Positions 1,481 to 24,951 of a stretch of 29,367 bases of DNA are shown here, one piece after another; positions within the stretch are counted from its first letter, which is position 1, and every line of letters starts with the position of its first letter. A program made the position numbers and the translations under genes. The notes under the pieces are model-generated. The model searched no databases. It saw only the letters and a program-made list of their open reading frames with translations, and was not told where the DNA came from. This DNA comes from a virus: IMG/VR virus record IMGVR_UViG_3300025112_000120, positions 1 to 29,367 of that record. The stretch is one strand, 5' to 3'.

Positions 1481-2328
1481 TTGTTTCTCCCTCTATACAT
1501 AGTGTTAGTGCTCGGACGCTTCGTTCGCTTACCAAGTTCCGATGATATAAATTTAACATATCCAGCCCATGTTGTCAAGTCATAAAAGTTTTTCATTTGC
1601 TGCAAAGTGCCGCCGGCGGAGCCCCCAAAAACATCCTCCAGACCATAAGCCAGGGAGACATGGCGTTCGCCTTTGGGTAAGGGCTCGGACGGCATTTGCC
1701 CTTCGGGAGGAGCACGATAGTATGCAGCATTAGTTGTAATTGTTCTTTTGGCCCGGCGCCATTCTTCTGGATCTATTACAAAACTCAAGGGCAACCCGTC
1801 CTTTACGGTTTTTCCATTATGTGAGAAATAAAAAGGGGCGCTCTTGCGTAGTAAAGAACGATACTCTAAAACTTCTTTGGGATCCATCATCCCCATTGGA
1901 AACGAAATATAATAACGATCGGGCTGTGTCCATCTCGAAAACTTTGTGTGTATCCAGTATGCGACGTTAGCTCCGTGTATGACCGACCACGCATAGTTGT
2001 CCACCTTGTCTCGGTGTTTGGGATGAATGGGCACATAGTAAATGGGAACTTCTAGATGTTTCGTTTGTCCAAACTTAACAAAGGTACCTCGTTGGATACT
2101 GTCTATGTCGGTGGCCATCTCCCCAAGCCGATGGCGTAGTAATGGGGCCACATCATCATTGGCTACGATCCAGATTGAAGTGCAGCCGGCATGGAGACAT
2201 TCATAAACTGTTGCCTCTATTGCTGTGTAGTTGGGGCCGACTGGGATCAGCGAAGCATCCCACTCCATACCAAAATCAGGGTTCATGCCTGCGACGGGGA
2301 TGATCGCAGGCATCGCGAGCTTACTCAT
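1477..2328 (-). CDS. nucleotidyltransferase-like (GT-A fold) protein
   Basis: A 283-aa protein whose N-terminus (AIIPVAGM, then [15 protein letters not shown] and [14 protein letters not shown]) resembles the nucleotide-binding first half of sugar-nucleotide pyrophosphorylases. In place of the usual glycine-rich GxGxR loop it has [14 protein letters not shown], so catalysis is uncertain. Other notable stretches are [14 protein letters not shown] and the aromatic [13 protein letters not shown]. It overlaps the upstream gene by 8 nt and the downstream DnaE start by 4 nt, so the three are almost certainly co-transcribed and translationally coupled. I recall similar proteins in marine phage contigs without a known role. 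Fold assignment is by pattern only; the substrate is unknown. A role near the replisome is suggested only by position. Confidence 0.6.
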
Positions 2329-3049
2329 GCAAGATTAATCTTTCGTCGAGCTCCCCCACCACGTTAAAATGAAAAGTATTCTTGACAGCATGACGGAAAG
2401 AGTGGTGGATAATCAAATTCCTGCCGTTAGGTTGCTTAATCTGCTGCTCCTTCAATTTGCGCTGCAAAAGAATGCGGATTACAGTCTCGGAACAATCAAA
2501 ACTCTTAATATCTGGTGCACTTATGATGCTGGTTGTAATAATGTCTTTAAAATCGCCCGTAATGTTTCTATCAATACGATTTGACGGAACAAATCGGACG
2601 GTCTTTACGAAACTGTTCTTAAGATTTAGGATAATATCACGCCCCAAGCGTGACCCCGCAGCCACATCAAACATATCGTGTACCACATAGTCGGAGATTA
2701 TCTCTTCCACCCCCAAGTGTCCGCAGTTATCTAGATCAAACACATGAAGTGTTTTGAAGGTAATTAAAACTTTGGTGTTCCCTTGAGTAACAACTTTTAA
2801 TTTATTCCCCGCAAGAGCGACGGTTTCCACTTCAAAGGGAATGGGTAAGAGGGCCCGTAGCCCCAGATCAAAAATGCCTTCATACCACTTGCTCTTGATA
2901 TCTTGGTATCCTACAAAGTGGTGGAAGGGGCGCTGGTCGCTATTCACAATTAGGTGATAGCCGTGCTCTCGCGCAAACGAAACCGCCTCCTCTCGCCACC
3001 CAAGGACTACGTTGTCGATGGTGTATTCAAGAGGAGGCAACTTCATCAT
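2321..3049 (-). CDS. conserved hypothetical protein, first gene of the DnaE operon
   Basis: A 242-aa protein that I do not recognise. It begins MMKLPPLEYTIDN and contains a His-rich patch (QRPFHHFVGYQDIK) and a C-terminal HHSFRHAVKNTFHF segment. There are no membrane helices and no clear catalytic motif. The composition is that of a soluble alpha/beta protein. It overlaps the nucleotidyltransferase-like gene by 8 nt, which suggests that the two act together. A near-consensus sigma70 promoter ends only 6 nt before the ATG, so the transcript would begin at or next to the start codon. No Shine-Dalgarno sequence is visible, which fits a leaderless mRNA. A second ATG follows directly, so the start may be one codon later. 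Confidence 0.8.
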   Translation of the reverse strand: MMKLPPLEYTIDNVVLGWREEAVSFAREHGYHLIVNSDQRPFHHFVGYQDIKSKWYEGIFDLGLRALLPIPFEVETVALAGNKLKVVTQGNTKVLITFKTLHVFDLDNCGHLGVEEIISDYVVHDMFDVAAGSRLGRDIILNLKNSFVKTVRFVPSNRIDRNITGDFKDIITTSIISAPDIKSFDCSETVIRILLQRKLKEQQIKQPNGRNLIIHHSFRHAVKNTFHFNVVGELDERLILHE

Positions 3050-3050
3050 A

Positions 3051-3065
3051 GTGCTAGTATAGCAC
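3051..3065. repeat. palindrome centred on the P1 -10 box
   Basis: GTGCTA-GTA-TAGCAC is a perfect 6-bp inverted repeat with a 3-nt centre that covers the TATACT box of P1. It could be an operator for a repressor or activator that works at the -10. The arms are short, so chance is possible, but a second early promoter (P2) is arranged the same way. Confidence 0.5.
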
Positions 3066-3084
3066 CGATGATTAGTTAGGTCAA
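3056..3084 (-). promoter_or_regulatory. sigma70-like promoter P1 (TTGACC-17-TATACT)
   Basis: On the minus strand TTGACC (3084-3079) and TATACT (3061-3056) are separated by exactly 17 bp, five of six matches to each consensus hexamer. It lies in the gap between the 199-aa gene and the 242-aa gene and should drive the hypothetical, nucleotidyltransferase-like and dnaE operon. The expected start site, about 7 nt after the -10, coincides with the A of the ATG at 3049. Confidence 0.8.
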
Positions 3085-3106
3085 GGGGTTATTTTAATTC
3101 AGAAGA

Positions 3107-3706
3107 CTAATACTGCGGCTCTTCTGCCTGCGCGGCCTGCGCGGCGCGAGCCGCGGCTTCGCTGTCGTCGAACTTCTTCATCGCGCGGCGCCAGTGCAAG
3201 ACAGCAGCCACGAATGAGGCGACGGCGACGGCGCCCCCCGCAGCATAACCCAAGGTCTGGGCGTACTCTGCTAGAGGTCCGGTACTCAAGGCTTTGATCA
3301 CTTGCTCCCCGGTGAGGGCGCCGAAGGGGAGTCCCCCGAGGCCGGTCCACATCATGCCCCAAAGATTCTCACCATTCAATATATATTTCTCTAGCCATTC
3401 CGGCGCCGGATCCGACAGGTCTTCCTGGAGTTCGCCCTCTGGTGCTGAAGGGGGAGGGGGGGCCGCGGCCAATACGGCGTCTATCTTAGCTAACACCTCC
3501 GGAGGAAGCTGGGCTAACAGTTCATCGGCGGCGGCGGTGGCACGCGGGTCGTCCAGGATCTGGACCACGTCCTCACCGGAAGGGACTACAACATCTTCCG
3601 GAGATGCTTCTGCGGCTTCGCCTTCTTCGCCGTTGTCCTCGTTTATGTAACGCCGCCAACTCTCTGTGATCAGCTGATGCTCTTTAAAACTTGAAAACTT
3701 ACTCAT
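3107..3706 (-). CDS. putative capsid-targeted internal virion protein with C-terminal membrane helix
   Basis: A 199-aa protein of unknown function. Residues 10-23 (HQLITESWRRYINE) match residues 10-23 of the protein at 9264-10145. Both carry [LI]-x-E at positions 13-15 and 21-23, the cleavage consensus of T4-type prohead protease gp21, so the first 15 or 23 residues may be a capsid-targeting propeptide. Next comes an acidic, Pro/Ala-rich linker (about 24-110), a weakly hydrophobic stretch near 113-133, and a likely membrane helix (about 152-172, YAAGGAVAVASFVAAVLHW) followed by an RRAMKK basic anchor and an Ala-rich tail. A membrane-interacting ejected protein is possible. A putative late motif lies 21 nt upstream, with GGAGAG as ribosome binding site. 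Its position among early genes is odd. The gene is clear; its packaging is inferred. Confidence 0.75.
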   Translation of the reverse strand: MSKFSSFKEHQLITESWRRYINEDNGEEGEAAEASPEDVVVPSGEDVVQILDDPRATAAADELLAQLPPEVLAKIDAVLAAAPPPPSAPEGELQEDLSDPAPEWLEKYILNGENLWGMMWTGLGGLPFGALTGEQVIKALSTGPLAEYAQTLGYAAGGAVAVASFVAAVLHWRRAMKKFDDSEAAARAAQAAQAEEPQY

Positions 3707-3727
3707 GATATCTCTCCGCGGGTATTA

Positions 3728-3735
3728 TAAATAGT
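3728..3735 (-). promoter_or_regulatory. ACTATTTA putative late promoter motif
   Basis: ACTATTTATAATA on the minus strand begins directly after the stop codon of the GroES-like gene and 21 nt before the ATG of the 199-aa gene. The same octamer precedes three other virion-type genes (10172, 24738, 26428). The opposite strand reads TATAAATA at 3726-3733, identical to the T4 late promoter core but pointing the other way. Confidence 0.55.
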
Positions 3736-4014
3736 CTAGCCCTCTGATAAAATCCCAATTACATGGTTTTCCTTGATGACCGTAAAGGTCTTGCCGTTGT
3801 GTTGAATGTCGCGGAGCATATGTGCTTCCACAACAATCTGCAATCCGGCGCCCCATAGGGTTCCGTTTTCCCCCGAGCAGCTGACTACTTCAACCACCGC
3901 AAATGGGCTCTCTACTGCACGGTAGTCCTGGGGTAGCAGGATGCCGCTATCTTCTGTGTCTGTACCCTCTACGGTTCGTACCGAGAGGTAGTTATTAACT
4001 GGTGCAAGATTCAT
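3736..4014 (-). CDS. groES: GroES-like co-chaperonin (Cpn10 / T4 gp31 type)
   Basis: A 92-aa protein close to the usual Cpn10 length. It has the Cpn10 layout: an N-terminal strand (NNYLSVRTVE), a mobile-loop segment with hydrophobic SGILLPQD that would dock on GroEL, a beta-barrel core (FAVVEVVSCSG, QIVVEAHMLRDI) and a C-terminal strand IKENHVIGIL. Viral Cpn10 proteins such as T4 gp31 replace host GroES to fold the major capsid protein; that role is inferred here. It follows the ribonucleotide reductase gene by 12 nt with an AAAGGA ribosome binding site, so it is probably in the same operon. The sequence is diverged from bacterial GroES, hence slight caution. Confidence 0.8.
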   Translation of the reverse strand: MNLAPVNNYLSVRTVEGTDTEDSGILLPQDYRAVESPFAVVEVVSCSGENGTLWGAGLQIVVEAHMLRDIQHNGKTFTVIKENHVIGILSEG

Positions 4015-4026
4015 TTGTTTTCCTTT

Positions 4027-6450
4027 CTATCCACACTTTGCAAAGCCGCAGTTCCTACAAGTCACACAGCCTTCAACATATATCAGCCCGTTGGTACCGC
4101 ATTCCCCACAGGTATGTTCCGTAGCCTCTTGGCCGTCCGGAATATAATTCTTCAAGATCCGAGCAATACATTTAGCGAAGCTAAACATATCACTGTCGCG
4201 ATCCTTCTGTAGTTGTTCCACCACATATTGAATATTAGCGCCATGGCGCATTCCAAGTGAGATCATGCGCGTAAAGGCGGAGTGATTGGGGTTGTCGAAA
4301 ACCTTAACCAAGTCTTTGATTATGACCATATCGCCATTCTTGCCAACCTTAAGATCGTAAATAGAATTCATTGTCTTTCGAGAATTCTTCACCAGAATAC
4401 CCTCTGCTTTATCGCGCGGGATTTCAATAAGAGTGGACAAGCCCCCCATTACCTCATAGGGCTTCTCGTCCATAAGACCAACCACAATAATCCACTTCTC
4501 TCCCTGAATGGTAGTGTGGTGGATGTTACACTCTAATTCAATGGGGCGCTTCGGTGCCGTGTGTTGAGGAAAAAGGGCGCCCTCTATGTCTGCCACAAGA
4601 ACGCCAGAACGAGATCCCTCTACATACACAGTAATCCCCTTGAGTCCTTGGCGCCAGCCTTCCATATAAAGTTCTCCCACCACCGTGGCAGGAGTGCCAG
4701 CGGGCAGATTAATTGTAGAACTAATGCTGTGATCGATACTCTGCTGAATGACAGATTGTAAAGCAACACGTCGGGTCCAATCAATACTGTCGGACTCTAC
4801 AAAGAAAGCAGGTAGGGGCCCCGGTTCTTCCAAGGGATGCCGGTCGAGCCACGCCTGAACATTGTGGTGGTGAACCGTGTATTCTAACCACCGATCACCC
4901 ATCTCATCAACATAGTCAGCCTCCGACTCCTGTTCATCATGTGATAATTTCCGGCGCCGGATATAACTATTTCGAAACACCGGCTCCACGCCCGAAGATG
5001 TTTGAGACATAATAGAAACCGATCCTGTGGGAGCATTTGTAAGAATAGCAATGTTACGGCGCCCATGCTCGGCAATCAACTCCTTGAGGGATGTCGGTAG
5101 CCGTTGAATAAACTCGTTGTTTTCCTCAACGCTCCAGTCAAAGGCCGGAAAGTGGCCACGCTCTTGGGCTAGGTAGGCGCTCTCTTCGTAGGCTGCGTCC
5201 CGTAAGGTGCGATAGATTTGCTCAACAATTACAAGAGCTTCGGTGCTATCGTAGGCCAAATTCAAAGATGCCAACGCATCTGCTAGTCCATGAGTGCCTA
5301 GACCGGTGCGACGGCCGTTGAATGCGGCACCATAAAGTTTAGTCCAAAGACTTTTTTCATCATCGGTGTCCGCACACTTGCGTATGTTTTGTAGCTTTTC
5401 TAACTCCAGTTCAACCAGGTCATCCGAAAGACGCATCCCAATCGCCGACACCTCTTTTAGCTTCCCAAAGTCAAACTCTGCATTTTTTTCAAAAGAATTT
5501 TTCACGAGGCTCTTTAAATTCAGGGATATGAGCCTACAGGAATCGTAAGCGGAAAGAGGAATCTCGCCGCACGGGTTGGTGGTCTTTGTTTTAAAATCCT
5601 TATATTCATGCGCTGGTAAATTGCGCGTAATATTGTCCCACATGAGCAGCCCGGGTTCCGCCGTCTGTGTGGCCGCATCAATGATAGCTCCCCACAGATA
5701 ACGCGCCCCTACATCACTCACATATTCGGGAGTATCTGATTCAACGGGAAACTGCAAAGCAAAGGACTCGTCGTTTTCGACTGCCCTCATGAAGTCGTCC
5801 GTTATCTTTACAGAGATATTGGCTCCCGTAACTTTGGTGAGGTCCTTTTTCATCTTTACAAACTTCTCAATATCGGGATGGCGAATATCCATGGAAATCA
5901 TGAGAGCCCCACGCCTCCCATTCTGCCCAATCATACGACAAATATATGAATAGAAATCAGCAAAACTCCAAGCCCCAGTAGTAGTGCGAGCAGAGTTGTT
6001 AACGGGAGCACCCTCGGGGCGCAAATCAGAAATATCAAGGCCAACCCCACACCGACGTTTAAACAAGTTAGCAAGGTCTTTGCCAGCGTCCACAATGGAC
6101 GAAACACTATCCTGTGGATTGTCGACAACCACACAGTTAGATAAAGATACATTAACATAATCATTTCCTATCCCCATCATGGGGGAGCCTTGGGGTACAA
6201 TATACTTGAAGTCTTTAAGGTGAGAATAGATCTCTTCCTCTGTAAGATGGTTTGATTTGCGAGTAATGAACTTGTCTTCCACTCTCGCGAACTCTTTGGC
6301 GAGGCGCTTGTGCATATCGTCAGGGGTCTTTTCCATAAAGTTCCCCTTCTTGTCGCGCAAACAATATTTTGTCATAAAAACATTAGTCGCTAATTCATCA
6401 CCACCAAAATATTCACGAGTCGCGACTCGTACTTCGTTTTCACCAAACAT
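4027..6450 (-). CDS. nrdJ: class II (adenosylcobalamin-dependent) ribonucleotide reductase
   Basis: This enzyme reduces ribonucleotides to deoxyribonucleotides with a cobalamin-generated thiyl radical, supplying dNTPs for phage replication. The protein has 807 aa. Three active-site cysteines are visible: C106 in SLSNC, the radical C294 in NPCGEIPL, and C305 in DSCRLISLNL; the 11-residue spacing of the last two matches the family. The C-terminus has CGECG and CVTCRNCGFAKCG, the zinc and redox CxxC tail typical of NrdJ. No separate small subunit gene is seen nearby, which fits class II. ATG at 6450 is chosen over the preceding GTG because GGAGG lies 7 nt before it. The gene starts right after the helicase stop. 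The host must make or take up B12. Confidence 0.93.
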   Translation of the reverse strand: MFGENEVRVATREYFGGDELATNVFMTKYCLRDKKGNFMEKTPDDMHKRLAKEFARVEDKFITRKSNHLTEEEIYSHLKDFKYIVPQGSPMMGIGNDYVNVSLSNCVVVDNPQDSVSSIVDAGKDLANLFKRRCGVGLDISDLRPEGAPVNNSARTTTGAWSFADFYSYICRMIGQNGRRGALMISMDIRHPDIEKFVKMKKDLTKVTGANISVKITDDFMRAVENDESFALQFPVESDTPEYVSDVGARYLWGAIIDAATQTAEPGLLMWDNITRNLPAHEYKDFKTKTTNPCGEIPLSAYDSCRLISLNLKSLVKNSFEKNAEFDFGKLKEVSAIGMRLSDDLVELELEKLQNIRKCADTDDEKSLWTKLYGAAFNGRRTGLGTHGLADALASLNLAYDSTEALVIVEQIYRTLRDAAYEESAYLAQERGHFPAFDWSVEENNEFIQRLPTSLKELIAEHGRRNIAILTNAPTGSVSIMSQTSSGVEPVFRNSYIRRRKLSHDEQESEADYVDEMGDRWLEYTVHHHNVQAWLDRHPLEEPGPLPAFFVESDSIDWTRRVALQSVIQQSIDHSISSTINLPAGTPATVVGELYMEGWRQGLKGITVYVEGSRSGVLVADIEGALFPQHTAPKRPIELECNIHHTTIQGEKWIIVVGLMDEKPYEVMGGLSTLIEIPRDKAEGILVKNSRKTMNSIYDLKVGKNGDMVIIKDLVKVFDNPNHSAFTRMISLGMRHGANIQYVVEQLQKDRDSDMFSFAKCIARILKNYIPDGQEATEHTCGECGTNGLIYVEGCVTCRNCGFAKCG

Positions 6451-6453
6451 CAC

Positions 6454-7821
6454 CTAGCCTCCGTTATTCTTTTTGAACTTCTTATATTTCTCAACCAAAT
6501 TCTCTTTTTGTTTTTTAGCACTTACTTCTACCAATTCATCTTCTGCGCAAGGTTCCAATACCTTAATACATACAGTGCCAGTATCCATAAATATGGGAAA
6601 GACAATGCCGTCCGGACCATTTCGATTCTTGGCTACGAACATCCTACCCCCGTTGGTTGCCTTGTCTTCAATGGTTCGAGAAATACTAAAGATAAAGTCA
6701 GCGACAAAACACTTATTGAAAGCTTCGGAAATTGATTCCATTGTGATGACTTCTGCATTTAACCCCGATCTATTGGTTTGGGATGCCGTCCACACCGGAC
6801 ATTTATATTCGGATGCAATAGCGCGTAGCTCTTCGTAAATAGATTCGAGTTCGTTCCTCTTCTCTTTAAGATATCGAACCGGACGCAACAGATCTCCATA
6901 GTCAATAATGATCATATCTACATCAATATTGCGCATGCGCAGCTTTTCTAAATGGTTGCGCACAGTTTGAGTAGAGGCCGTCTTGGTAGGGTATTCTTTT
7001 ACAATAAGTTTCCCTTTAATATCCTGTACTTCTTCATAAATTTTTTCTTTAAAGGTGCCGAGATTTTGCAGAGGGATGGAGGTAAGACAAGAATCATAGC
7101 GTGATGCCACTACCATATCTTGAAGCTCAAGTGTGTAGTGCACGACCGTCTTGCCGGCCTTGAGGGCCTGGGTGCCCAAGTGAACAAGTGCCATGGATTT
7201 ACCGGCGCCAGTGGGGGCAATCACAACCCCCAATTCTTTCTGGCCCAAACCTCCCTTGCAAATATTGTCAATGAGGGGCCACCCAGTTGTTAGCGGATTA
7301 CGGAATCGAGGCTTAAATCGTTCTTCAAAATCTTTTTTATAATCATAGCCTTCATCGTTGTTCATTCCTAATTTAAGAGAATCGTTAATAACTTGGGATA
7401 TCTCATCGAACGAAGAACTCTGAAGAAGTCCAATTGATTTAACCATCGCGGACTTGAGATTCTGCTTCTTGCAAAAATCCAAGGACGTGTCCTTGATATA
7501 CTCCACATCGGTGAGGTTGGTGATTTGACTGCGAACATAGAACTCGCGCGTTTGTTTGGCGGTCAGTTCGTTTTCATTCTCTAGCTCCGAACGCAGAATA
7601 GTCTTCATGATATCACGCGATGGATGAACCCCATATTTCTTACGATAAGAAAATACCTTATTTAAAAATAACTTAAGATAGTTGAGTTCCAAAAAATTTA
7701 CATCTAATACTTCTTCGATCTGATCTGCGAATGCACGATCATCCAAAATTACCATGCACAACTTTTCTTGAAAGGACTTCCCGTACTTTGAGAAGTTGAC
7801 GGGCTCACCGTTTAATTTCAT
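6454..7821 (-). CDS. replicative DNA helicase, DnaB/T4 gp41 type
   Basis: A RecA-fold hexameric helicase that unwinds DNA ahead of the replication fork. The C-terminal motor contains Walker A APTGAGKS (about residues 202-209), the HYTLELQ segment with the catalytic Glu, Walker B DMIIIDYGD (about 302-310) and the sensor SQTNR (about 347-351). The N-terminal 160 residues are helical and would be the collar and primase-interaction domain. Its length of 455 aa suits T4 gp41-like enzymes. ATG at 7821 is preferred to the ATG at 7833, because AGGGAAG sits just before 7821 while the upstream ATG has no well-placed Shine-Dalgarno sequence. No helicase loader or primase gene is seen in the window. Confidence 0.92.
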   Translation of the reverse strand: MKLNGEPVNFSKYGKSFQEKLCMVILDDRAFADQIEEVLDVNFLELNYLKLFLNKVFSYRKKYGVHPSRDIMKTILRSELENENELTAKQTREFYVRSQITNLTDVEYIKDTSLDFCKKQNLKSAMVKSIGLLQSSSFDEISQVINDSLKLGMNNDEGYDYKKDFEERFKPRFRNPLTTGWPLIDNICKGGLGQKELGVVIAPTGAGKSMALVHLGTQALKAGKTVVHYTLELQDMVVASRYDSCLTSIPLQNLGTFKEKIYEEVQDIKGKLIVKEYPTKTASTQTVRNHLEKLRMRNIDVDMIIIDYGDLLRPVRYLKEKRNELESIYEELRAIASEYKCPVWTASQTNRSGLNAEVITMESISEAFNKCFVADFIFSISRTIEDKATNGGRMFVAKNRNGPDGIVFPIFMDTGTVCIKVLEPCAEDELVEVSAKKQKENLVEKYKKFKKNNGG

Positions 7822-7838
7822 AGCTTCCCTCATGGCTA

Positions 7839-7867
7839 ATATTACTATCTCCTGAGTGCTTTGTCAA
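7839..7867 (-). promoter_or_regulatory. weak sigma70-like promoter P6 before the helicase
   Basis: TTGACA (7867-7862) is followed after 17 bp by TAATAT (7844-7839), four of six matches. The -35 lies in the end of the exonuclease gene and the -10 in the short gap. A transcript would start just before the helicase Shine-Dalgarno sequence. It could equally be a chance match. Confidence 0.35.
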
Positions 7868-8810
7868 CACAAATTCTATTCATTGTGGCATGTAAATCGT
7901 CCCAGTTGAACACCCCGAAGCCATCCTGATTCATCATACGAATAATCTCGGTTTTATTATACTCATATTCAAAATTATCCAATGAATAATGCACCTTCTC
8001 GCGACACTGCAACGAAAGCGCGGGGGCATACAGTTGCATCAATTTATAGTTCTCTATAATTACATCTCTATACTCCAAAACGTTGGTGAAAAATTTAGCT
8101 TTTGAATCGCTCTTCAGGCAAAAATCAAAAATCTCCTGCAAAGACGCGTCCTTATCTTCCCTAAGAAATTTCAAGTTTTTTGAAATACTTTTTAGGCCAG
8201 CGCGGGGAACTCCCTTGAGATTATCAGAGGGATCGCCGGCCATTGCTCTAGCCATAGCAAAATTGCGAGGATGAATATCAAAATCCTCCACTATATTCAG
8301 CTTAGTGTGAACCTTTTTTTGAATGGGACGAAACAAAACTGTTTCATCATCGCAGAGTTGGAGGAAATCTTTGTCGCTAGAGATAATAACCTTTTGCCAT
8401 CCCTTAAATTGTTCGACTTGGGTAGCATAGGCAATAACATCATCGGCCTCAACCTCATCGAATCGAAGTTGAACGACAGGCAATTCATTAAGATATTCCA
8501 TCAGACGCAGCTGCTGCCACGCCATGTTGGCGCGTTGCTGCTCGTCGGTGAGGTCGGTCTGTCGATTGACTCGGATGGGCTTTCGGCCCTCCTTATAGTT
8601 CTTGTTTTGCTCGCGTCTCTTACGGCTGCCGCCGGGGCCGTCCCAGATGATCATCACAGTGTCGGGCTTAATGTCGCGACAGAGCTTCTGTAAGATGCCT
8701 AGGAAGCCTTTTAAGCCACCGATGGGCTGTCCGTGGACCGAGAGGCTGGGGTTGACGATAAAGGCCCTGAAATAGGCGTTGAGCGCGTCGACAATCATTA
8801 CGCGTTTCAT
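7845..8810 (-). CDS. 5'-3' exonuclease / flap endonuclease (FEN, T4 RNase H-like)
   Basis: A 321-aa PIN/FEN-family nuclease, likely for removing RNA primers and flaps from Okazaki fragments. Metal-binding acidic residues follow the family order: D8 in MIVDALN, D57 in IIWDGPGG, E121/D123/D124 in EADDVIAY, D146/D148 in SSDKDFLQL and D193/D196 in AGDPSDNLKG. The helix-hairpin-helix-type segment GVPRAGLKSISK follows. The basic KRREQNKNYKEGRK stretch matches the arch region. The gene overlaps the deaminase stop by 4 nt (ATGA), so it is translationally coupled to it. In bacteria this activity is fused to DNA polymerase I; here it is encoded separately from the family A polymerase at 14091-15278. 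Confidence 0.9.
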   Translation of the reverse strand: MKRVMIVDALNAYFRAFIVNPSLSVHGQPIGGLKGFLGILQKLCRDIKPDTVMIIWDGPGGSRKRREQNKNYKEGRKPIRVNRQTDLTDEQQRANMAWQQLRLMEYLNELPVVQLRFDEVEADDVIAYATQVEQFKGWQKVIISSDKDFLQLCDDETVLFRPIQKKVHTKLNIVEDFDIHPRNFAMARAMAGDPSDNLKGVPRAGLKSISKNLKFLREDKDASLQEIFDFCLKSDSKAKFFTNVLEYRDVIIENYKLMQLYAPALSLQCREKVHYSLDNFEYEYNKTEIIRMMNQDGFGVFNWDDLHATMNRICVDKALRR

Positions 8811-9190
8811 AGACGCATGCTCTCAATCTTACCATGCTCGTTGGTATAGTAGACGCGACGCACACCCACATGACGCATGGCGGCTTCGCACATAGGACAG
8901 GGCTTGCTGATGCGAGCCTCTCCTTCTCTGTTGATACGGGCGACGTAAACGTCTGACCCCCGTGTAGTCGAGCGGGCCATCCCTAGAATGGCACCCAACT
9001 CTGCGTGGAGGGTAGCCTCGCCATGACCCTCTCGGCGAAATCTTGCACCGAAACTACAATGTCGGTGCTTATTGCAGGAAATACTACGAACGGAGCTACC
9101 CTTTACAAGGACGGCTCCGTGTCTAAACTTTCCATAATTCGATTGTTCCGCCACTCTCTTGGCGAACTCTATATATCTCTGGTTCTTCAC
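8807..9190 (-). CDS. dCMP/cytidine deaminase-family enzyme
   Basis: A 127-aa zinc-dependent deaminase, most likely converting dCMP to dUMP for dTMP synthesis. The zinc ligands and catalytic Glu are in HAELGAI (H62, E64), and the two cysteines are in PCPMC (C98, C101). It is shorter than T4 dCMP deaminase (about 190 aa), and it lacks an obvious allosteric region, so another cytosine-compound substrate is possible. The start is GTG at 9190 with GGGGAG five nt upstream. It is the first gene of the operon running through exonuclease, helicase, ribonucleotide reductase and co-chaperonin, and it follows promoter P2. Confidence 0.85.
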   Translation of the reverse strand: MKNQRYIEFAKRVAEQSNYGKFRHGAVLVKGSSVRSISCNKHRHCSFGARFRREGHGEATLHAELGAILGMARSTTRGSDVYVARINREGEARISKPCPMCEAAMRHVGVRRVYYTNEHGKIESMRL

Positions 9191-9207
9191 TGTCTCCCCT
9201 AATGTAT

Positions 9208-9240
9208 GAAGCTCCTATGAGTATACCTCACAGGAGCTTC
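9208..9240. repeat. 14-bp-arm palindrome overlapping promoter P2
   Basis: GAAGCTCCTATGAG, TATAC, CTCACAGGAGCTTC: arms of 14 bp pair at 13 positions around a 5-nt centre. It covers the -10 box of P2 and most of the spacer. As DNA it is a good candidate operator. As RNA read through from the upstream ParB-like gene it would be a stable hairpin at the end of that transcript. No U-run follows, so it is not a standard terminator. Confidence 0.75.
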
Positions 9241-9248
9241 GAAGTCAA
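9220..9248 (-). promoter_or_regulatory. sigma70-like promoter P2 (TTGACT-17-TATACT)
   Basis: TTGACT (9248-9243) and TATACT (9225-9220) are 17 bp apart on the minus strand. The predicted start near 9213 would leave a leader of about 22 nt containing the GGGGAG ribosome binding site of the deaminase. As in P1, the -35 is preceded by CCC and the -10 is TATACT. It should drive the deaminase to co-chaperonin operon. Confidence 0.82.
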
Positions 9249-9263
9249 GGGTTTAGTTTGAGC

Positions 9264-10145
9264 TTATGCCGTTTTGGTCTTGTTTCCGAGAGCATTGCCG
9301 ATGGCTGTCAAATATTGTAGTGTCCGGACGGCTCCGAGCTTTTTTAAATCGATCATGGCAAAAGTTCCGATTTGAGCCGTAGGGTTGTTTAACATAGTCG
9401 CGGCCCAGCGATGATGCCCATCCAATATATGACCCTCCATGGAGGCATAAGCGCCGAGCATGCCACCCGCGACGCCATTAATAGCCATCCCCAAAGCCTT
9501 GGGCAAAAGAATATTGGTCTGTGTGGGGATCCCCTTCGCCGCCGCGAACTGGCCCTGCCTTACAATTCCGAGATCATCGTCTTTAGGGTCCCCATCTTTC
9601 TCGGCATGGCCTCCTGTCATAAAGGCTTTGGCCTCCTCTGAGTCCATTCCTATAAAACTATTGGGGCCCGGTGCATCCGCGCGCTCTATCATATCGACGT
9701 TGTACTTGCCGCCGGGCTTTAACGCATCCTCCACATCTTTAACATCTCCAACCGCATCGTCGGGACCCGGAAGAAAAGGCATTTCGCTTTTGGGGAGACC
9801 CTTATCGGGAATTTTTGCACCAATGGCGGCGGCGCGCTTGGCAAACACTTCGGGGCCCCCGATAGAAGCGACCCATTTTTTCAGTTTTTCGAAGTCACTG
9901 GGGTAGTCTCCCTGTGCAGCCTGTAACTGTTTAAACAAATCGCCGCCTCGAAGTAGCTCATTTATTACTTGCAAGGCTAATTCTGGCTTTCCGTCAAATA
10001 CTTTAAAACTTGTTTGATCCGTTATCTGCAATCCTGATGCGGGCGACGCGGCCTGGTTGGAGGGGGGGTCCTCCTCTTCAGCTAGATACCTGCGCCAGTT
10101 CTCCATAATTAACTGGTGGCTGTTATAACGGGAATATTTGCTCAT
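9264..10145 (-). CDS. putative capsid-targeted protein with ParB-like DGHHR motif
   Basis: A 293-aa protein. Residues 10-23 (HQLIMENWRRYLAE) match the N-terminus of the 199-aa protein at 3107-3706 position for position, including [LI]-x-E at 13-15 and 21-23, the gp21-type prohead protease consensus. Near residues 238-246 it has HILDGHHRW, the signature of the ParB/sulfiredoxin-fold nucleotide-binding motif. The middle is Gly/Pro/Asp-rich. A ParB-like protein delivered in the capsid could act on host or phage DNA or nucleotides after ejection; this is inference. ATG at 10145 is chosen over the GTG one codon upstream because it aligns with the paralogous N-terminus. GAGGAG lies 8 nt upstream, and a late motif lies 26 nt upstream. 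Confidence 0.75.
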   Translation of the reverse strand: MSKYSRYNSHQLIMENWRRYLAEEEDPPSNQAASPASGLQITDQTSFKVFDGKPELALQVINELLRGGDLFKQLQAAQGDYPSDFEKLKKWVASIGGPEVFAKRAAAIGAKIPDKGLPKSEMPFLPGPDDAVGDVKDVEDALKPGGKYNVDMIERADAPGPNSFIGMDSEEAKAFMTGGHAEKDGDPKDDDLGIVRQGQFAAAKGIPTQTNILLPKALGMAINGVAGGMLGAYASMEGHILDGHHRWAATMLNNPTAQIGTFAMIDLKKLGAVRTLQYLTAIGNALGNKTKTA

Positions 10146-10171
10146 CACTGTTTCTCCTCGTGGACGTATAA

Positions 10172-10179
10172 TAAATAGT
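10172..10179 (-). promoter_or_regulatory. ACTATTTA putative late promoter motif
   Basis: GACTATTTATTATAC starts one base after the uvsX stop codon and 26 nt before the ATG of the ParB-like gene. It shares the GACTATTTAT core and following AT-rich bases with the site at 3728-3735, and lies in the same place relative to a gene with the same N-terminal motif. Confidence 0.55.
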
Positions 10180-10180
10180 C

Positions 10181-11302
10181 TTATTTGCTATCTACGTCGT
10201 AGAAATCTTCAGCGCTGCCCTCGCGCGTGTCGAACTTACGAATAATCTCTTCATCCATAATCTCAAGCACTCGGTTCTTAAACTTCTTGTCTTCCAATTT
10301 AGAAGTCCAATGAGCGCTCTGGAATTTCTCTTCAGTGCCGTCCTTGTAGACTAGGGAGAACCATGCGCCTGCTTGCTTGAGATTGTCGGAGCCCTTGATA
10401 GCTTCGAGCCAACTCTCTTGATCCTGAATGCCCACAGCGTCGGTGCCCCACAGAATCTTGAAGGCACAGTTGCGCCCCTGCGTTCCGAAGCGGGACTTCT
10501 CAAGTTTAACCTTAACCTCGGAGCCAATGCGGAAACCACTCTCATCCTCGATGAAAGCAGACTTCGCCTTGCGGCCGGTGAGCCACACCCGTAGAGAATA
10601 TACATAATGCATAGCCTTGCCGCCGGGGGTGATGAACGGAGTCGTCATTGCGACGATGCGTGCGTTCGGTCCCTGTGGGATATTAGTCTTCAACTGGTTG
10701 AGAACCAGGAAGGCAGACTTGGTATTCGCGATGGGGATAGTTAACTTAGACATTCCCTTTGACAGAATGCGTGCCTTCATAGCCATGGTGGACTGAGGAT
10801 TGAAGTCTCCTTCCACATCCGTAATGGTTGGGGTCATAGCCAGCGAGTCCCAGATGAACAAGGTTCTTTCGGCCCCGGACTTCAAAACGTTTTCAATGGT
10901 TTCCAACACATGCTCAACGGACTGGGCCTGAACATAGATAAGTTCATCTATGTCGCACCCGGCGCGCTCAAGAAAGCCCGGGTCAATTGCTGACTCGGAG
11001 TCCATATAGATAACGGTCATTCCCATCTTCTGGGCATTGCCGGCAATCTGTGCGGCCATGAACGATTTGCCAGTTGACTCCAGACCGGCAATCTCTGTGA
11101 ACTTACCGATGGGAATGCCGCCAAGCTGGCCCCTACAAACAATAGAATCCAGCCAGCGCGAGCCAGTTGGGATCCATTCTTTTACTTCTGTTGGGTTAGC
11201 TTTGTTTAAATTGTGGGCTACCTCCAGGCCCGAGGTCTTATTGATAAGAGTTCTTAAGCCGTCAATTGAAATCTTGCCGGCTTTTGATTTACTCTTCGCC
11301 AT
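10181..11302 (-). CDS. uvsX: RecA/UvsX-type recombinase
   Basis: A 373-aa ATP-dependent strand-exchange protein for recombination-dependent replication and repair. Walker A is GLESTGKS (residues 73-80). The catalytic Glu region is YMDSESAID (about 99-107), and Walker B is TLFIWDSLA near residue 150. The segment after QLKTNIPQG (about 205) matches the DNA-binding loop region. The Walker A sequence is closer to bacterial RecA (GPESSGKT) than to the GPSKSFKS that I recall for T4 UvsX, so it could be named RecA or UvsX. The start is ATG with AAAGGAAA as ribosome binding site. It lies with SSB in one block, as expected for functional partners. Confidence 0.93.
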   Translation of the reverse strand: MAKSKSKAGKISIDGLRTLINKTSGLEVAHNLNKANPTEVKEWIPTGSRWLDSIVCRGQLGGIPIGKFTEIAGLESTGKSFMAAQIAGNAQKMGMTVIYMDSESAIDPGFLERAGCDIDELIYVQAQSVEHVLETIENVLKSGAERTLFIWDSLAMTPTITDVEGDFNPQSTMAMKARILSKGMSKLTIPIANTKSAFLVLNQLKTNIPQGPNARIVAMTTPFITPGGKAMHYVYSLRVWLTGRKAKSAFIEDESGFRIGSEVKVKLEKSRFGTQGRNCAFKILWGTDAVGIQDQESWLEAIKGSDNLKQAGAWFSLVYKDGTEEKFQSAHWTSKLEDKKFKNRVLEIMDEEIIRKFDTREGSAEDFYDVDSK

Positions 11303-11813: not shown

Positions 11814-11831
11814 TTTTTTTCCTTTTTAATT

Positions 11832-11860
11832 TGAGACCCCTGTATCCCCGGGCCTCCCTG
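11832..11860 (-). ncRNA. conserved leader hairpin, copy 1
   Basis: On the minus strand the RNA reads CAGGGAGGCCC, then GGGGATACAG, then GGGTCTCA. GAGGCCC can pair with GGGUCUC (7 bp, one G-U). It lies 18 nt before the GTG of the 161-aa gene and matches copy 2 at nearly every base. No U-run follows, so it is not an intrinsic terminator. It may be a translational operator, a processing site or a protein-binding element. Confidence 0.6.
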
Positions 11861-11873
11861 CGGCTGTCAGAGT

Positions 11874-12062: not shown

Positions 12063-12080
12063 AACTCTTCCTTTCTATTG

Positions 12081-12110
12081 TGAGACCCCTGGTAACCCTA
12101 GGCCTCCCTG
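12081..12110 (-). ncRNA. conserved leader hairpin, copy 2
   Basis: On the minus strand the RNA reads CAGGGAGGCCTAGGG, TTACC, AGGGGTCTCA. GAGGCCU can pair with GGGGUCUC, using G-U pairs where copy 1 has G-C, so the fold is kept although bases differ. It lies between the SSB stop and the Hc1-like start, 18 nt before the ATG and just upstream of the AAAGGAAG site. Confidence 0.6.
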
Positions 12111-12121
12111 TGGGGGGGATA

Positions 12122-12925: not shown

Positions 12926-13777
12926 TCAGCCAATATCCTGATCGTCTAGTAGTTCTATGAACGATTGTACCATAGATGAATACTTAATGCAATAGCAATA
13001 TTTTTGGTCATAGCTTGTTTCAAAAACACCATATGAAATATTAACATCGTCGGCGACTTGCGCCTTAACATAGTCCGTAATTTTACGGAACAGGCTACCG
13101 TCTTGTTTCAAGTCCTCATCCCCAATACCATAATAGTATACCACATCCCTCGGCCGTGTCAAGCTATAAAACCATTTTTCTTTTTCTTCATCAACGTCAA
13201 GGATCCCCAATGTCGCAATGCGGCTAACGGAGGCAGGCTCAATAAAATTACCAATAACAGGGGCGCTGTTCATAAAAACATTAACCATGTGGAGGGTGTT
13301 AACAATAGCCTGATTGAGTATATTATAGTAACCACGAATCGGCACGTCGCCAATCCCCCTTTCCAAGAGGACATTATCTACCAAATAGATACGCTCTAAG
13401 AGCCCAGAGCGGGCATATTCCTGAAGCACGTTGCGCACTACACGCTCTTGTTTTTTCTGTACCTCGCTTGCTAGTGTCAGATCCGGCTGGATATAAAGAA
13501 CAGTGAGTCGGTTATTCTTAATTTGTTCTAATAATCTAAGCACCCCACCCGAGATTTGACTTACACCGCAGACCACTATGCACACCTCCTCATCCGCAAA
13601 GTTTAATTTGCGCTTGAGAGAAGGAAAATGTTTATCGTATTCCTCATGACTGTTTCTTTGTTTGATAGTAATATCTGCACTTTTATGGGTATCAATGCTA
13701 TAGGTGGTATACTGAGGGTATTTAGAAAACACCTGGGCTACATTGGTTCCGGGGGTGCCTAGGCCCAAAATTATCAT
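12926..13777 (-). CDS. FtsZ/tubulin-superfamily-like protein with degenerate GTP loop
   Basis: A 283-aa protein that follows the FtsZ layout. Strand 1 and loop 1 are MIILGLGTPGTNV (FtsZ: GVGGGGGNAV); YSIDTHKSAD stands where FtsZ has NTDAQAL. VCGVSQISGG (residues 70-78) replaces the tubulin signature GGGTGSG. Helix and strand LTVLYIQPDLTLASEVQKK and IYLVDNVLLE match FtsZ VGVVTKPF and VIPNDKLL. A C-terminal DDVNISYGVFE and YCYCIKYSS match FtsZ ANIIFGAVID and VTVIATG. The signature loop has lost its glycines, so GTP hydrolysis and polymerisation may be lost. ATG at 13777 is chosen over 13792 because it gives an ATGA overlap with the upstream stop and has AGAGGA just before it. Superfamily assignment is by pattern only. 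Confidence 0.62.
   Translation of the reverse strand: MIILGLGTPGTNVAQVFSKYPQYTTYSIDTHKSADITIKQRNSHEEYDKHFPSLKRKLNFADEEVCIVVCGVSQISGGVLRLLEQIKNNRLTVLYIQPDLTLASEVQKKQERVVRNVLQEYARSGLLERIYLVDNVLLERGIGDVPIRGYYNILNQAIVNTLHMVNVFMNSAPVIGNFIEPASVSRIATLGILDVDEEKEKWFYSLTRPRDVVYYYGIGDEDLKQDGSLFRKITDYVKAQVADDVNISYGVFETSYDQKYCYCIKYSSMVQSFIELLDDQDIG
13135..13162 (-). promoter_or_regulatory. sigma70-like promoter P3 (TTGACA-16-TATACT)
   Basis: TTGACA (13162-13157) and TATACT (13140-13135) are 16 bp apart inside the FtsZ-like coding region. A transcript starting near 13128 would have a leader of about 235 nt before the SSB ATG. The -10 is identical to those of P1 and P2, which makes chance less likely. Confidence 0.6.
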
Positions 13778-14094
13778 TCTTCCTCTACCCATCCCAAAAT
13801 CATGCCCATATCAAAGCCACCCCTGCTTACGCGCTTTGAGATGCGCGCGGCCTTAATGGCGCCCGGAGTAATCCCCTCACGGTCGCATATAAAAGTCAAA
13901 ACTTCAAGAATATCTGCGGCTTCTTCTGCCGAGGGGTTCTCCACAAATTCTTGGACCTCTTCCCGAAGCTTCATAAGTCCATATCCACGCAATTCACCGC
14001 CTGGGCTGGCGCGATAAACTTCGCACACTTTTCCGTCGGCTTCAATTATTTCCGGAATTCGATCTCGAACAAGTTTATAATAATGCTTTTTCAT
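13774..14094 (-). CDS. MazG-like / PRA-PH superfamily nucleotide pyrophosphohydrolase
   Basis: A 106-aa all-alpha pyrophosphohydrolase. The N-terminal YYKLVRDRIPEII is the signature of a phosphoribosyl-ATP pyrophosphohydrolase-like branch. The metal-binding pattern EExxE (E45, E46, E49) and ExxD (E58, D61) is in LREEVQEF and EEAADILE. Likely substrates are noncanonical or excess (d)NTPs, or an alarmone-like nucleotide; this cannot be told from sequence. It overlaps the polymerase gene upstream and the FtsZ-like gene downstream by 4 nt each (ATGA), so the three are translationally coupled. Confidence 0.82.
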   Translation of the reverse strand: MKKHYYKLVRDRIPEIIEADGKVCEVYRASPGGELRGYGLMKLREEVQEFVENPSAEEAADILEVLTFICDREGITPGAIKAARISKRVSRGGFDMGMILGWVEEE

Positions 14095-15278
14095 AACTTA
14101 AGAGCCTTCATTTCTCCCAGGGTTCTCCCCACCGAAACATTCACTTTGAATAGATCATAACGCGTTTTCTTAAAGGTGTCAAGTAAATTTAAGATTTCGT
14201 ACCGATCTTCCTCGGCCAGATCGATGTACACCGCATCGTGAATAAGAAATGAAATGTGGCTTTTCCTCCCCTTTAAAAGCTCGTAAACTTTATAAGCCTG
14301 TTCGTGCACCATATCAATGGTGGTGCTTTGAACGATGTAATTCAGCGCGTGGTGCTCATCTACATTCTCTATAATTCTACCATAATCTGTCTCAATTTTG
14401 AAGCCATTCCAATACTTATTTCGCACCAACTCCTTATTATAAAGACGCTGTAGGTCCTTGTTTTCCTTGGCAGAATACAACCATGCGAAGGTTTTTACTT
14501 TGGCCTCTTCGCGAGTCAACTTACCATCAAAAATGTTCTTTACATTCCAGTTATGGATATCGTTCTTTGGCTGCTCAACACCAGCAAGCGCCAACAGCAC
14601 CCGCAACTCTGCCGCGTTAAAATCTAGTTCCAGCAGCCAGTCGTTCGTTGGTTTTATACACGCGCGAAACTCCTTGTTCATTGTGAGGAGGGGGAAGCTG
14701 TTGGGATTTGTGGCCAAGCGACCGGTTACGGTCCCCCATGGGTTATAATCACACACATGTTTCACGCTTTGCAAAGTACGATAAAAATTCTTTCCCCGCA
14801 CGGAGCTGAGTAAGTGCTGGATCGGCCTTATATCGATCCTCATTTGGCGCGATCGGATGTCGGCGAGCATCTTCACCAAATTATACATAGAGTCATAATT
14901 TCGTGGCCGGGGGTGGGTATCCAATACGTGTTCCGTAATTTTATTCTTCACTGCCAAATACTGAAATAAAAAGTACTCTGGTAGTATGTCATAGAAGCAG
15001 TTTTCATCGCTTAGGATTCGAGCGGTTTGGAACGCCTTAAGATAGGCTCTCAATTCCTGCTTAATTTTTTCCCATTCAGGCTGCAACCGCGACGGGCATA
15101 CGTCTGTGAGAGTGGTGCCTTTCGCATACAAACGCGCCAACTCATACTGATTGCCCAACAAGTGAGGGGAAAAGTCCCACGTCTTTCCCGAGTATGGGAG
15201 AGGGTCCCTGGTATGTATGGCATTGTCGGTGTAGTATCCTATACAGTCTGTCTTCGAATCCAGTACTTGAAAAATCAA
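14091..15278 (-). CDS. polA: family A DNA polymerase, polymerase domain only
   Basis: A 395-aa DNA polymerase without a 5' nuclease domain and without a recognisable 3'-5' exonuclease. Motifs are TGRLATNPNSFPLL (185-198), motif A LELDFNAAELR with D219, motif B REEAKVKTF with R256, K260 and F264, VQSTTID (316-322, Pol I VQGTAAD) and motif C LIHDAVYID with H347 and D348. Pol I has HDE at motif C; here the Glu is Ala349. The segment between motif B and VQSTTID is shorter than in Pol I. The enzyme is probably active, but fidelity and role may differ. The start is TTG at 15278 behind AAGGAAG. It may fill gaps with the separate FEN while DnaE replicates. Confidence 0.88.
   Translation of the reverse strand: MIFQVLDSKTDCIGYYTDNAIHTRDPLPYSGKTWDFSPHLLGNQYELARLYAKGTTLTDVCPSRLQPEWEKIKQELRAYLKAFQTARILSDENCFYDILPEYFLFQYLAVKNKITEHVLDTHPRPRNYDSMYNLVKMLADIRSRQMRIDIRPIQHLLSSVRGKNFYRTLQSVKHVCDYNPWGTVTGRLATNPNSFPLLTMNKEFRACIKPTNDWLLELDFNAAELRVLLALAGVEQPKNDIHNWNVKNIFDGKLTREEAKVKTFAWLYSAKENKDLQRLYNKELVRNKYWNGFKIETDYGRIIENVDEHHALNYIVQSTTIDMVHEQAYKVYELLKGRKSHISFLIHDAVYIDLAEEDRYEILNLLDTFKKTRYDLFKVNVSVGRTLGEMKALKL
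14154..14182 (-). promoter_or_regulatory. sigma70-like promoter P4 (TTGACA-17-TATGAT)
   Basis: TTGACA (14182-14177) and TATGAT (14159-14154) are 17 bp apart, near the 3' end of the family A polymerase gene. The expected start near 14147 leaves about 53 nt before the MazG-like ATG. Eleven of twelve consensus positions match. Confidence 0.5.
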
Positions 15279-24716: not shown

Positions 24717-24737
24717 CGTCAAGGGCTCCTCTAGTTA

Positions 24738-24745
24738 TAAATAGT
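24738..24745 (-). promoter_or_regulatory. ACTATTTA putative late promoter motif
   Basis: AACTATTTATAACTAG on the minus strand lies 21 nt before the ATG of the 109-aa gene and 17 nt after the stop of the frameshift product. The plus strand reads TATAAATA at 24736-24743. It shares the octamer with the sites at 3728, 10172 and 26428. Confidence 0.55.
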
Positions 24746-24762
24746 TTTAAACCCAAAATCGT

Positions 24763-24951
24763 CTATCTTTTACGCTGAACCTGTTTTTCATAGTGATCCG
24801 CCTCTTTCTTGTACTCTTTAACGAGGCGTTGCAAAAACCATCGTCTTAAGGCAATAGGAAGATTGTACATTTCGACGAACGACCATCCTCCATACTGTTT
24901 AAGGCTAAAAAACTCTTCGTAGATCCCTTTTTGATAATTACTGTCGAGGCC
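24763..24951 (-). CDS. frameshift extension of the gp26-like protein
   Basis: An open frame of 62 codons plus stop that lacks its own usable start. An in-frame TGA lies six codons before its first unique codon (GGC at 24951), no ATG, GTG or TTG follows until an ATG 28 codons in, and there is no ribosome binding site. Its sequence looks like a real protein: GLDSNYQKGIYEEFFSLKQY, SFVEMYNLPIALRRWFLQRL, then KEYKKEADHYEKQVQRKR. It is +1 (or -2) to the gp26-like frame and overlaps the end of it. Expressed by frameshift at the T7 run it would give a product of about 344 aa. It is the likely long form of a tail assembly chaperone pair. Confidence 0.75.
   Translation of the reverse strand, partial: GLDSNYQKGIYEEFFSLKQYGGWSFVEMYNLPIALRRWFLQRLVKEYKKEADHYEKQVQRKR

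Follow-up and report, generated by a model that had tools for sequence, protein, structure and literature searches.

Putative cargo cassettes with N-terminal tags and a late-type promoter motif between the replication operons of a T4-like phage

The window, a 29.4-kb stretch of a T4-like phage record, carries nearly all of its genes on the minus strand. Two slots on that strand each hold one gene between replication operons (Table 1). Slot 2 lies between a RecA-like gene and an operon that is opened by dCMP deaminase, continues with exonuclease-like, helicase-like and RNR-like genes and ends with a Cpn10-like gene. The Cpn10-like gene is at the same time the border of slot 1, behind which follows an operon of two genes of unknown function and a DNA polymerase III alpha-like gene. 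No head genes were found within the window, and the head region is absent from this record.

Table 1. Coordinates of the two slots and their borders in the window
Feature	Position	Strand	Remarks
RecA-like gene	10181..11302	-	upstream border of slot 2
Slot 2 putative late-promoter motif ACTATTTA	10172..10179	-	1 nt past the RecA stop
Slot 2 putative cargo gene, 293 aa	9264..10145	-	tag A N-terminus, C-terminal DGHHRW motif
Tag A of putative cargo 2, MSKYSRYNSHQLIMENWRRYLAE	10077..10145	-	
Slot 2 sigma70-type promoter TTGACT-17-TATACT	9220..9248	-	belongs to the next operon; 16 nt past the cargo gene end
Slot 2 hairpin enclosing the -10 box	9208..9240	-	covarying; -26.0 kcal/mol, z -6.0 as RNA
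dCMP deaminase	8807..9190	-	opens the operon behind slot 2
Cpn10-like gene	3736..4014	-	upstream border of slot 1
Slot 1 putative late-promoter motif ACTATTTA	3728..3735	-	adjoins the Cpn10 stop, 0 nt between
Slot 1 putative cargo gene, 199 aa	3107..3706	-	tag A N-terminus, body without relatives
Tag A of putative cargo 1, MSKFSSFKEHQLITESWRRYINE	3638..3706	-	
Slot 1 sigma70-type promoter TTGACC-17-TATACT	3056..3084	-	belongs to the next operon; 23 nt past the cargo gene end
Slot 1 7-bp hairpin over the -10 box	3050..3066	-	beside the start codon; -7.1 kcal/mol, z -2.5 as RNA
242-aa gene, function unknown	2321..3049	-	opens the operon behind slot 1

Both slots are built alike. The late motif, the tagged gene and the TTGACY-17-TATACT promoter described in the initial annotation were all found in each of them, and both promoter regions fold as RNA with the -10 box in a stem-loop, in agreement with the palindrome noted there. 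All five copies of the motif ACTATTTA in the window are on its minus strand. The two proteins share the N-terminal form HQLI(M/T)ExWRRYxxE, with 14 identical residues among the first 24. Different codons are used at 10 of these 14 positions, and two of the four residues with the same codon (M and W) are single-codon amino acids. The claim that the pair is not a recent duplication is thus borne out for the tags; the bodies of the two proteins are unrelated anyway.

In a sample of four large related contigs (G001-G004, 583 kb), the form CTATTTA was more enriched than any other 7-mer in the region 18-50 nt ahead of genes, with 43 occurrences where 3.7 are expected, and it had a strong bias to the coding strand. 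The genes preceded by it include those for the tail sheath, the tail tube and the head-tail adaptor and also a PhoH-like gene. Judged from the sequence, CTATTTA is probably the late promoter of this phage group. The T4 late motif TATAAATA showed no coding-strand enrichment in the related contigs, and a search of five records for a gp55-like late sigma factor by Sigma70_r2 (PF04542) gave one match, in one of the five records, below the cut-off. If the late reading is true, late-only transcript 5' ends are expected about 5-8 nt past ACTATTTAT and early-only ends past TATACT.

The tag of the two window proteins, tag A, is an N-terminal peptide of about 23 residues with the core LI[MT]ENWRKFLxE. 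A second tag, tag B (MKITKQRLKEIIKEEL, MK[IL][TS]KxRLKxIIxEE), occupies the same slots. Together the two tags were found on 115 distinct proteins, which fall into 75 body clusters; matches to the tag A pattern include a few probable chance ones. No body cluster mixes tags A and B. At least 120 stretches in IMG/VR contain one exact form of tag A, and CTATTTA lies within 70 nt upstream of 35 of the 92 tag matches examined for both patterns. Queries with the tags by tblastn against phage records found nothing, the queries being too short to reach significance.

About 110 related loci, gathered via anchor genes and mutually related, were compared, and the number of tagged genes per slot in them varies from 0 to at least 4; the single gene per slot reported at first is therefore a feature of this genome only. 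Slot 1, anchored on the 242-aa gene, was measurable at 23 sites. It is filled at 17 of these, with a span of 266-2508 nt, and in all 17 CTATTTA adjoins the Cpn10 stop (+1) and tagged genes are present, including one at L012 whose tag was missed by the first pattern. The six empty sites span 31-69 nt and none has the late motif. In slot 2, anchored on RecA, the late motif is present at 37/37 sites that open with a tagged gene versus 2/34 untagged sites (Fisher 3.5e-18, a value that overstates independence because the sites are related). The two untagged sites with the motif have tag B genes further down.

The early promoter behaves differently from the late motif. Each of the 25 relatives checked for slot 1 has it ahead of the 242-aa gene, and it is present in 6/6 of the shortest empty slot 2 sites, which consist of 69-72 nt with the promoter alone. 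It stands in slots with cargo as well as in those without, which assigns it to the operon behind the slot and rules it out as a part of the cassette. A modular slot, as first proposed, for accessory proteins that share an N-terminal address, with a late-type promoter before the gene and an early-type promoter after it, is upheld by the filled and empty sites, by the four cargo families found in either slot and by the fit of the tag to a capsid-targeting sequence cut by a gp21-type protease; the idea of a cassette that restarts early transcription downstream of itself was not sustained, because the sigma70-type promoter is there without it and only the late motif tracks the cargo.

A third slot was found in G001, G002, G003 and L006, where a primase-like gene is followed by CTATTTA, 3-4 tagged genes and a gp46/47-like gene. 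A TTGAC-TATACT promoter stands just ahead of the gp46/47-like gene in G001-G003; the candidate in L006 is weaker and further away. These environmental T4-like phages appear to have several docking places per genome, at which the late promoter is gained or lost with the gene. Tagged genes also occur in clusters outside the slots, many of them beside structural genes, so the distribution of the tag is wider than the slots. The initial annotation had held that tagged proteins lacking the two flanking promoter types would speak against it; the many tagged genes elsewhere bear out this objection in part, and the tag is not tied to the architecture. In L175-L251 many genes outside the slots that begin with MKLIMENWR come after a gene ending in GYYYYPLRNRY, which suggests that this gene end is a further common insertion place.

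The hairpins around the two early promoters are not equally well supported. In slot 2 the promoter is contained in a 12-bp stem, with 98% of the cells paired over 34 sequences, two-sided changes in six pairs and a covariation of 0.319 versus 0.055-0.086 in slid controls. G-U pairs make up about 15% of the cells and mismatches about 2%; pairing as RNA is favoured because G-U pairs are frequent, and a double-stranded operator palindrome was rejected as the best reading on the same two figures. An intrinsic terminator was rejected as the sole reading, as no T run follows the hairpin. In slot 1 all 133 of 133 cells are paired and two-sided changes are absent, which makes the support weaker than for slot 2. 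The -10 box of slot 1 and the ATG at 3049 are 6 nt apart, so the early transcript of this operon is probably leaderless. RNA begun at the early promoter would lack the 5' arm, and the hairpin would form in read-through RNA only; it may in this way bar late read-through RNA from use for the early genes.

The ends of the tags point to a protease. Among 72 tag A ends, L or V stands third-last in 58 and a terminal E in 54, the search pattern having required neither; tag B ends in IIxEE, an end that its search pattern partly required. Both kinds of end agree with the [LI]xE site at which gp21-type proteases cut. Of ten related records, eight encode a gp21-type protease and seven encode gp23, and conserved sites near the N-termini of the relatives' major capsid proteins (ELLRE/[SA]S) and proteases (LLTE) are consistent with [LI]xE. 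By analogy, the two genes of the window most likely encode head cargo. They are quite probably exchangeable cargo cassettes, equipped with late promoters, of a T4-type capsid-targeting system whose products would be packaged, cleaved and injected, and the two tag families are best read as new for this system. A mode of action like that of the T4 internal proteins is well supported; packaging into the virion is a prediction. Tag A or B would be the address that brings unrelated proteins into the prohead core, a gp21-type prohead protease would remove it at the [LI]xE end, and the mature cargo would remain with the DNA and then be injected into the next host. The cassette would bring a late promoter of its own, ACTATTTA, abutting the stop codon of the early operon, and would sit ahead of the early promoter that belongs to the next operon. 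Cargo could therefore be gained, lost or exchanged between slots without harm to either early operon.

The tag might also address the host membrane, a phage compartment or the tail, the late promoter then reflecting late function only. The helical structure predicted for the tag at low confidence would agree with this, as would the many tagged genes elsewhere that adjoin structural genes. Such an address is nevertheless improbable, given the match of the tag ends to the [LI]xE cut site, the gp21 and gp23 genes of the relatives and the use of the same slots by two unrelated tags with the same kind of end.

The bodies behind the tags are diverse, and targeting of cargo to the capsid accounts for them more readily than descent of all the proteins from a single ancient family that kept its N-terminal domain while the bodies diverged very fast. 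The N-terminal peptide common to all would be expected of such a family, and short bodies limit the detection of homology; against it, the tagged proteins range from about 50 to 548 aa, a few members match different domains (HAD, HD, APP1) and most match no family, and two different tags share the slots. We regard a single family as very improbable. Four cargo families occur in both slots 1 and 2. The 199-aa protein has no relative in phage records or IMG/VR. The DGHHRW family of the 293-aa protein was found at seven loci of slot 2; an AlphaFold model from seven sequences failed (pLDDT 34), and a profile search of solved structures gave matches at E 0.29 and 0.98 only, the latter a weak match to 1vk1 that might point to a ParB/Srx-like fold. 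In the 19947 region of G001 (L136) a tagged 476-aa protein resembles, by eye, a protein kinase-like fold (IGRGSFRSVYKP) and is possibly an injected kinase.

That the DNA of the tag is kept as a recombination site or translation signal is hardly credible: in its favour are a codon bias at some residues (AAG alone for K, mostly AAC for N) and the aid that a uniform 5' end would give to cassette exchange, but the same codon is used in 45% of cases versus 36% expected under free synonymous drift, and the two window tags differ in codons as described above. The near-free drift of the codons indicates that the peptide is what is conserved, which favours the reading as a capsid-targeting tag.

In T4, propeptides of 10-19 residues carry internal proteins into the core and are cleaved after L/I-x-E (PMC9026906). 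T4 IPIII is active in the host cytoplasm, sets host range and is required on one host strain (PMC9391042). The cassettes resemble this system in that IPI, IPII, IPIII and Alt likewise have a short N-terminal propeptide with an L/I-x-E end and a gp21-type protease, and the internal proteins likewise have unrelated mature bodies and an accessory role (PMC9026906, PMC9391042). Compared with the T4 CTS, by its description only, the tags here are longer, of other sequence and of two families. The cargo is also far more diverse than the T4 internal proteins, and it sits between replication operons in slots of its own, whose late motif is present or absent along with it. In phiKZ and SPN3US a relative of gp21 (gp175/gp245-type) cuts many head ejection proteins after x-x-E (PMC9026906); the phiKZ cut motif is reported as S/A-x-E, unlike the [LI]xE found here.

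By gp23 the nearest named relatives are Immutovirus (Flavobacterium phage immuto, 42% identity) and Microcystis phage Mel-JY01 (44%). Phage immuto, whose host is Flavobacterium sp. LMO8, has tag-B-like N-termini and CTATTTA, as here; tag A was not found in the stretches of its genome that were read (150 of 160 kb). In Mel-JY01 a protein carries the DGHHRW motif of the window's slot 2 cargo family. The promoter early stem-loop (PeSL) cassettes of T4-type phage (Arbiol et al. 2010) reportedly consist of an early promoter and a stem-loop that border exchangeable modules. Like them, the early promoter described here overlaps a stem-loop, that of slot 2 being the covarying one. Unlike in PeSL, this promoter element is not the mobile part and stays with the core operon, also in empty slots, whereas the part gained or lost is the late motif with the cargo.

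The T4 internal proteins IPI and IPIII are early effectors or anti-defence factors. By analogy the tagged proteins are likely to have such roles, and most of them are orphans missed by family searches. The tags therefore offer a handle, readable from DNA, on proteins that environmental T4-like phages probably inject into their hosts, and tags A and B are candidate packaging signals. Filled and empty versions of one site make the gain and loss of cassettes directly observable. A wider scheme is put forward tentatively, as somewhat less probable than not: a shared code of tags A and B, at least three standard docking sites between core operons, each of which takes up a cassette with a late promoter, and early promoters embedded in hairpins that insulate the early genes from late read-through. 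If such a two-tag code is true, any gene that gains a tag and lands in a slot would become injected cargo.

Several minor features of the window were recorded. By eye, 2-1480 and 14091-15278 (both minus strand) seem to encode a DNA polymerase III alpha-like protein, truncated at the window end, and a polymerase-like protein of family A, respectively. The RNR-like protein at 4027-6453 (minus strand) has its nearest matches, at about 40-44% identity, in large uncultured phages and in crAss-like phages; the matching proteins carry an annotation as vitamin B12-dependent. A 288-aa protein at 12926-13792 (minus strand) has a weak TrkA_N match only and may, by eye, be related to the GGGGTGSS tubulin-like protein at 16843-17985 of L006. 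A pair of similar elements, each about 30 nt long (GGGAGGCC..GGG.TAC..GGGGTCTCA), lies at 11814-11873 and 12063-12121 (minus strand), where each immediately precedes the ribosome site of a small gene. The 215-nt gap at 24723-24937 (minus strand), ahead of the 24387 gene, contains an open codon stretch without a listed start, and a late motif lies at its end.
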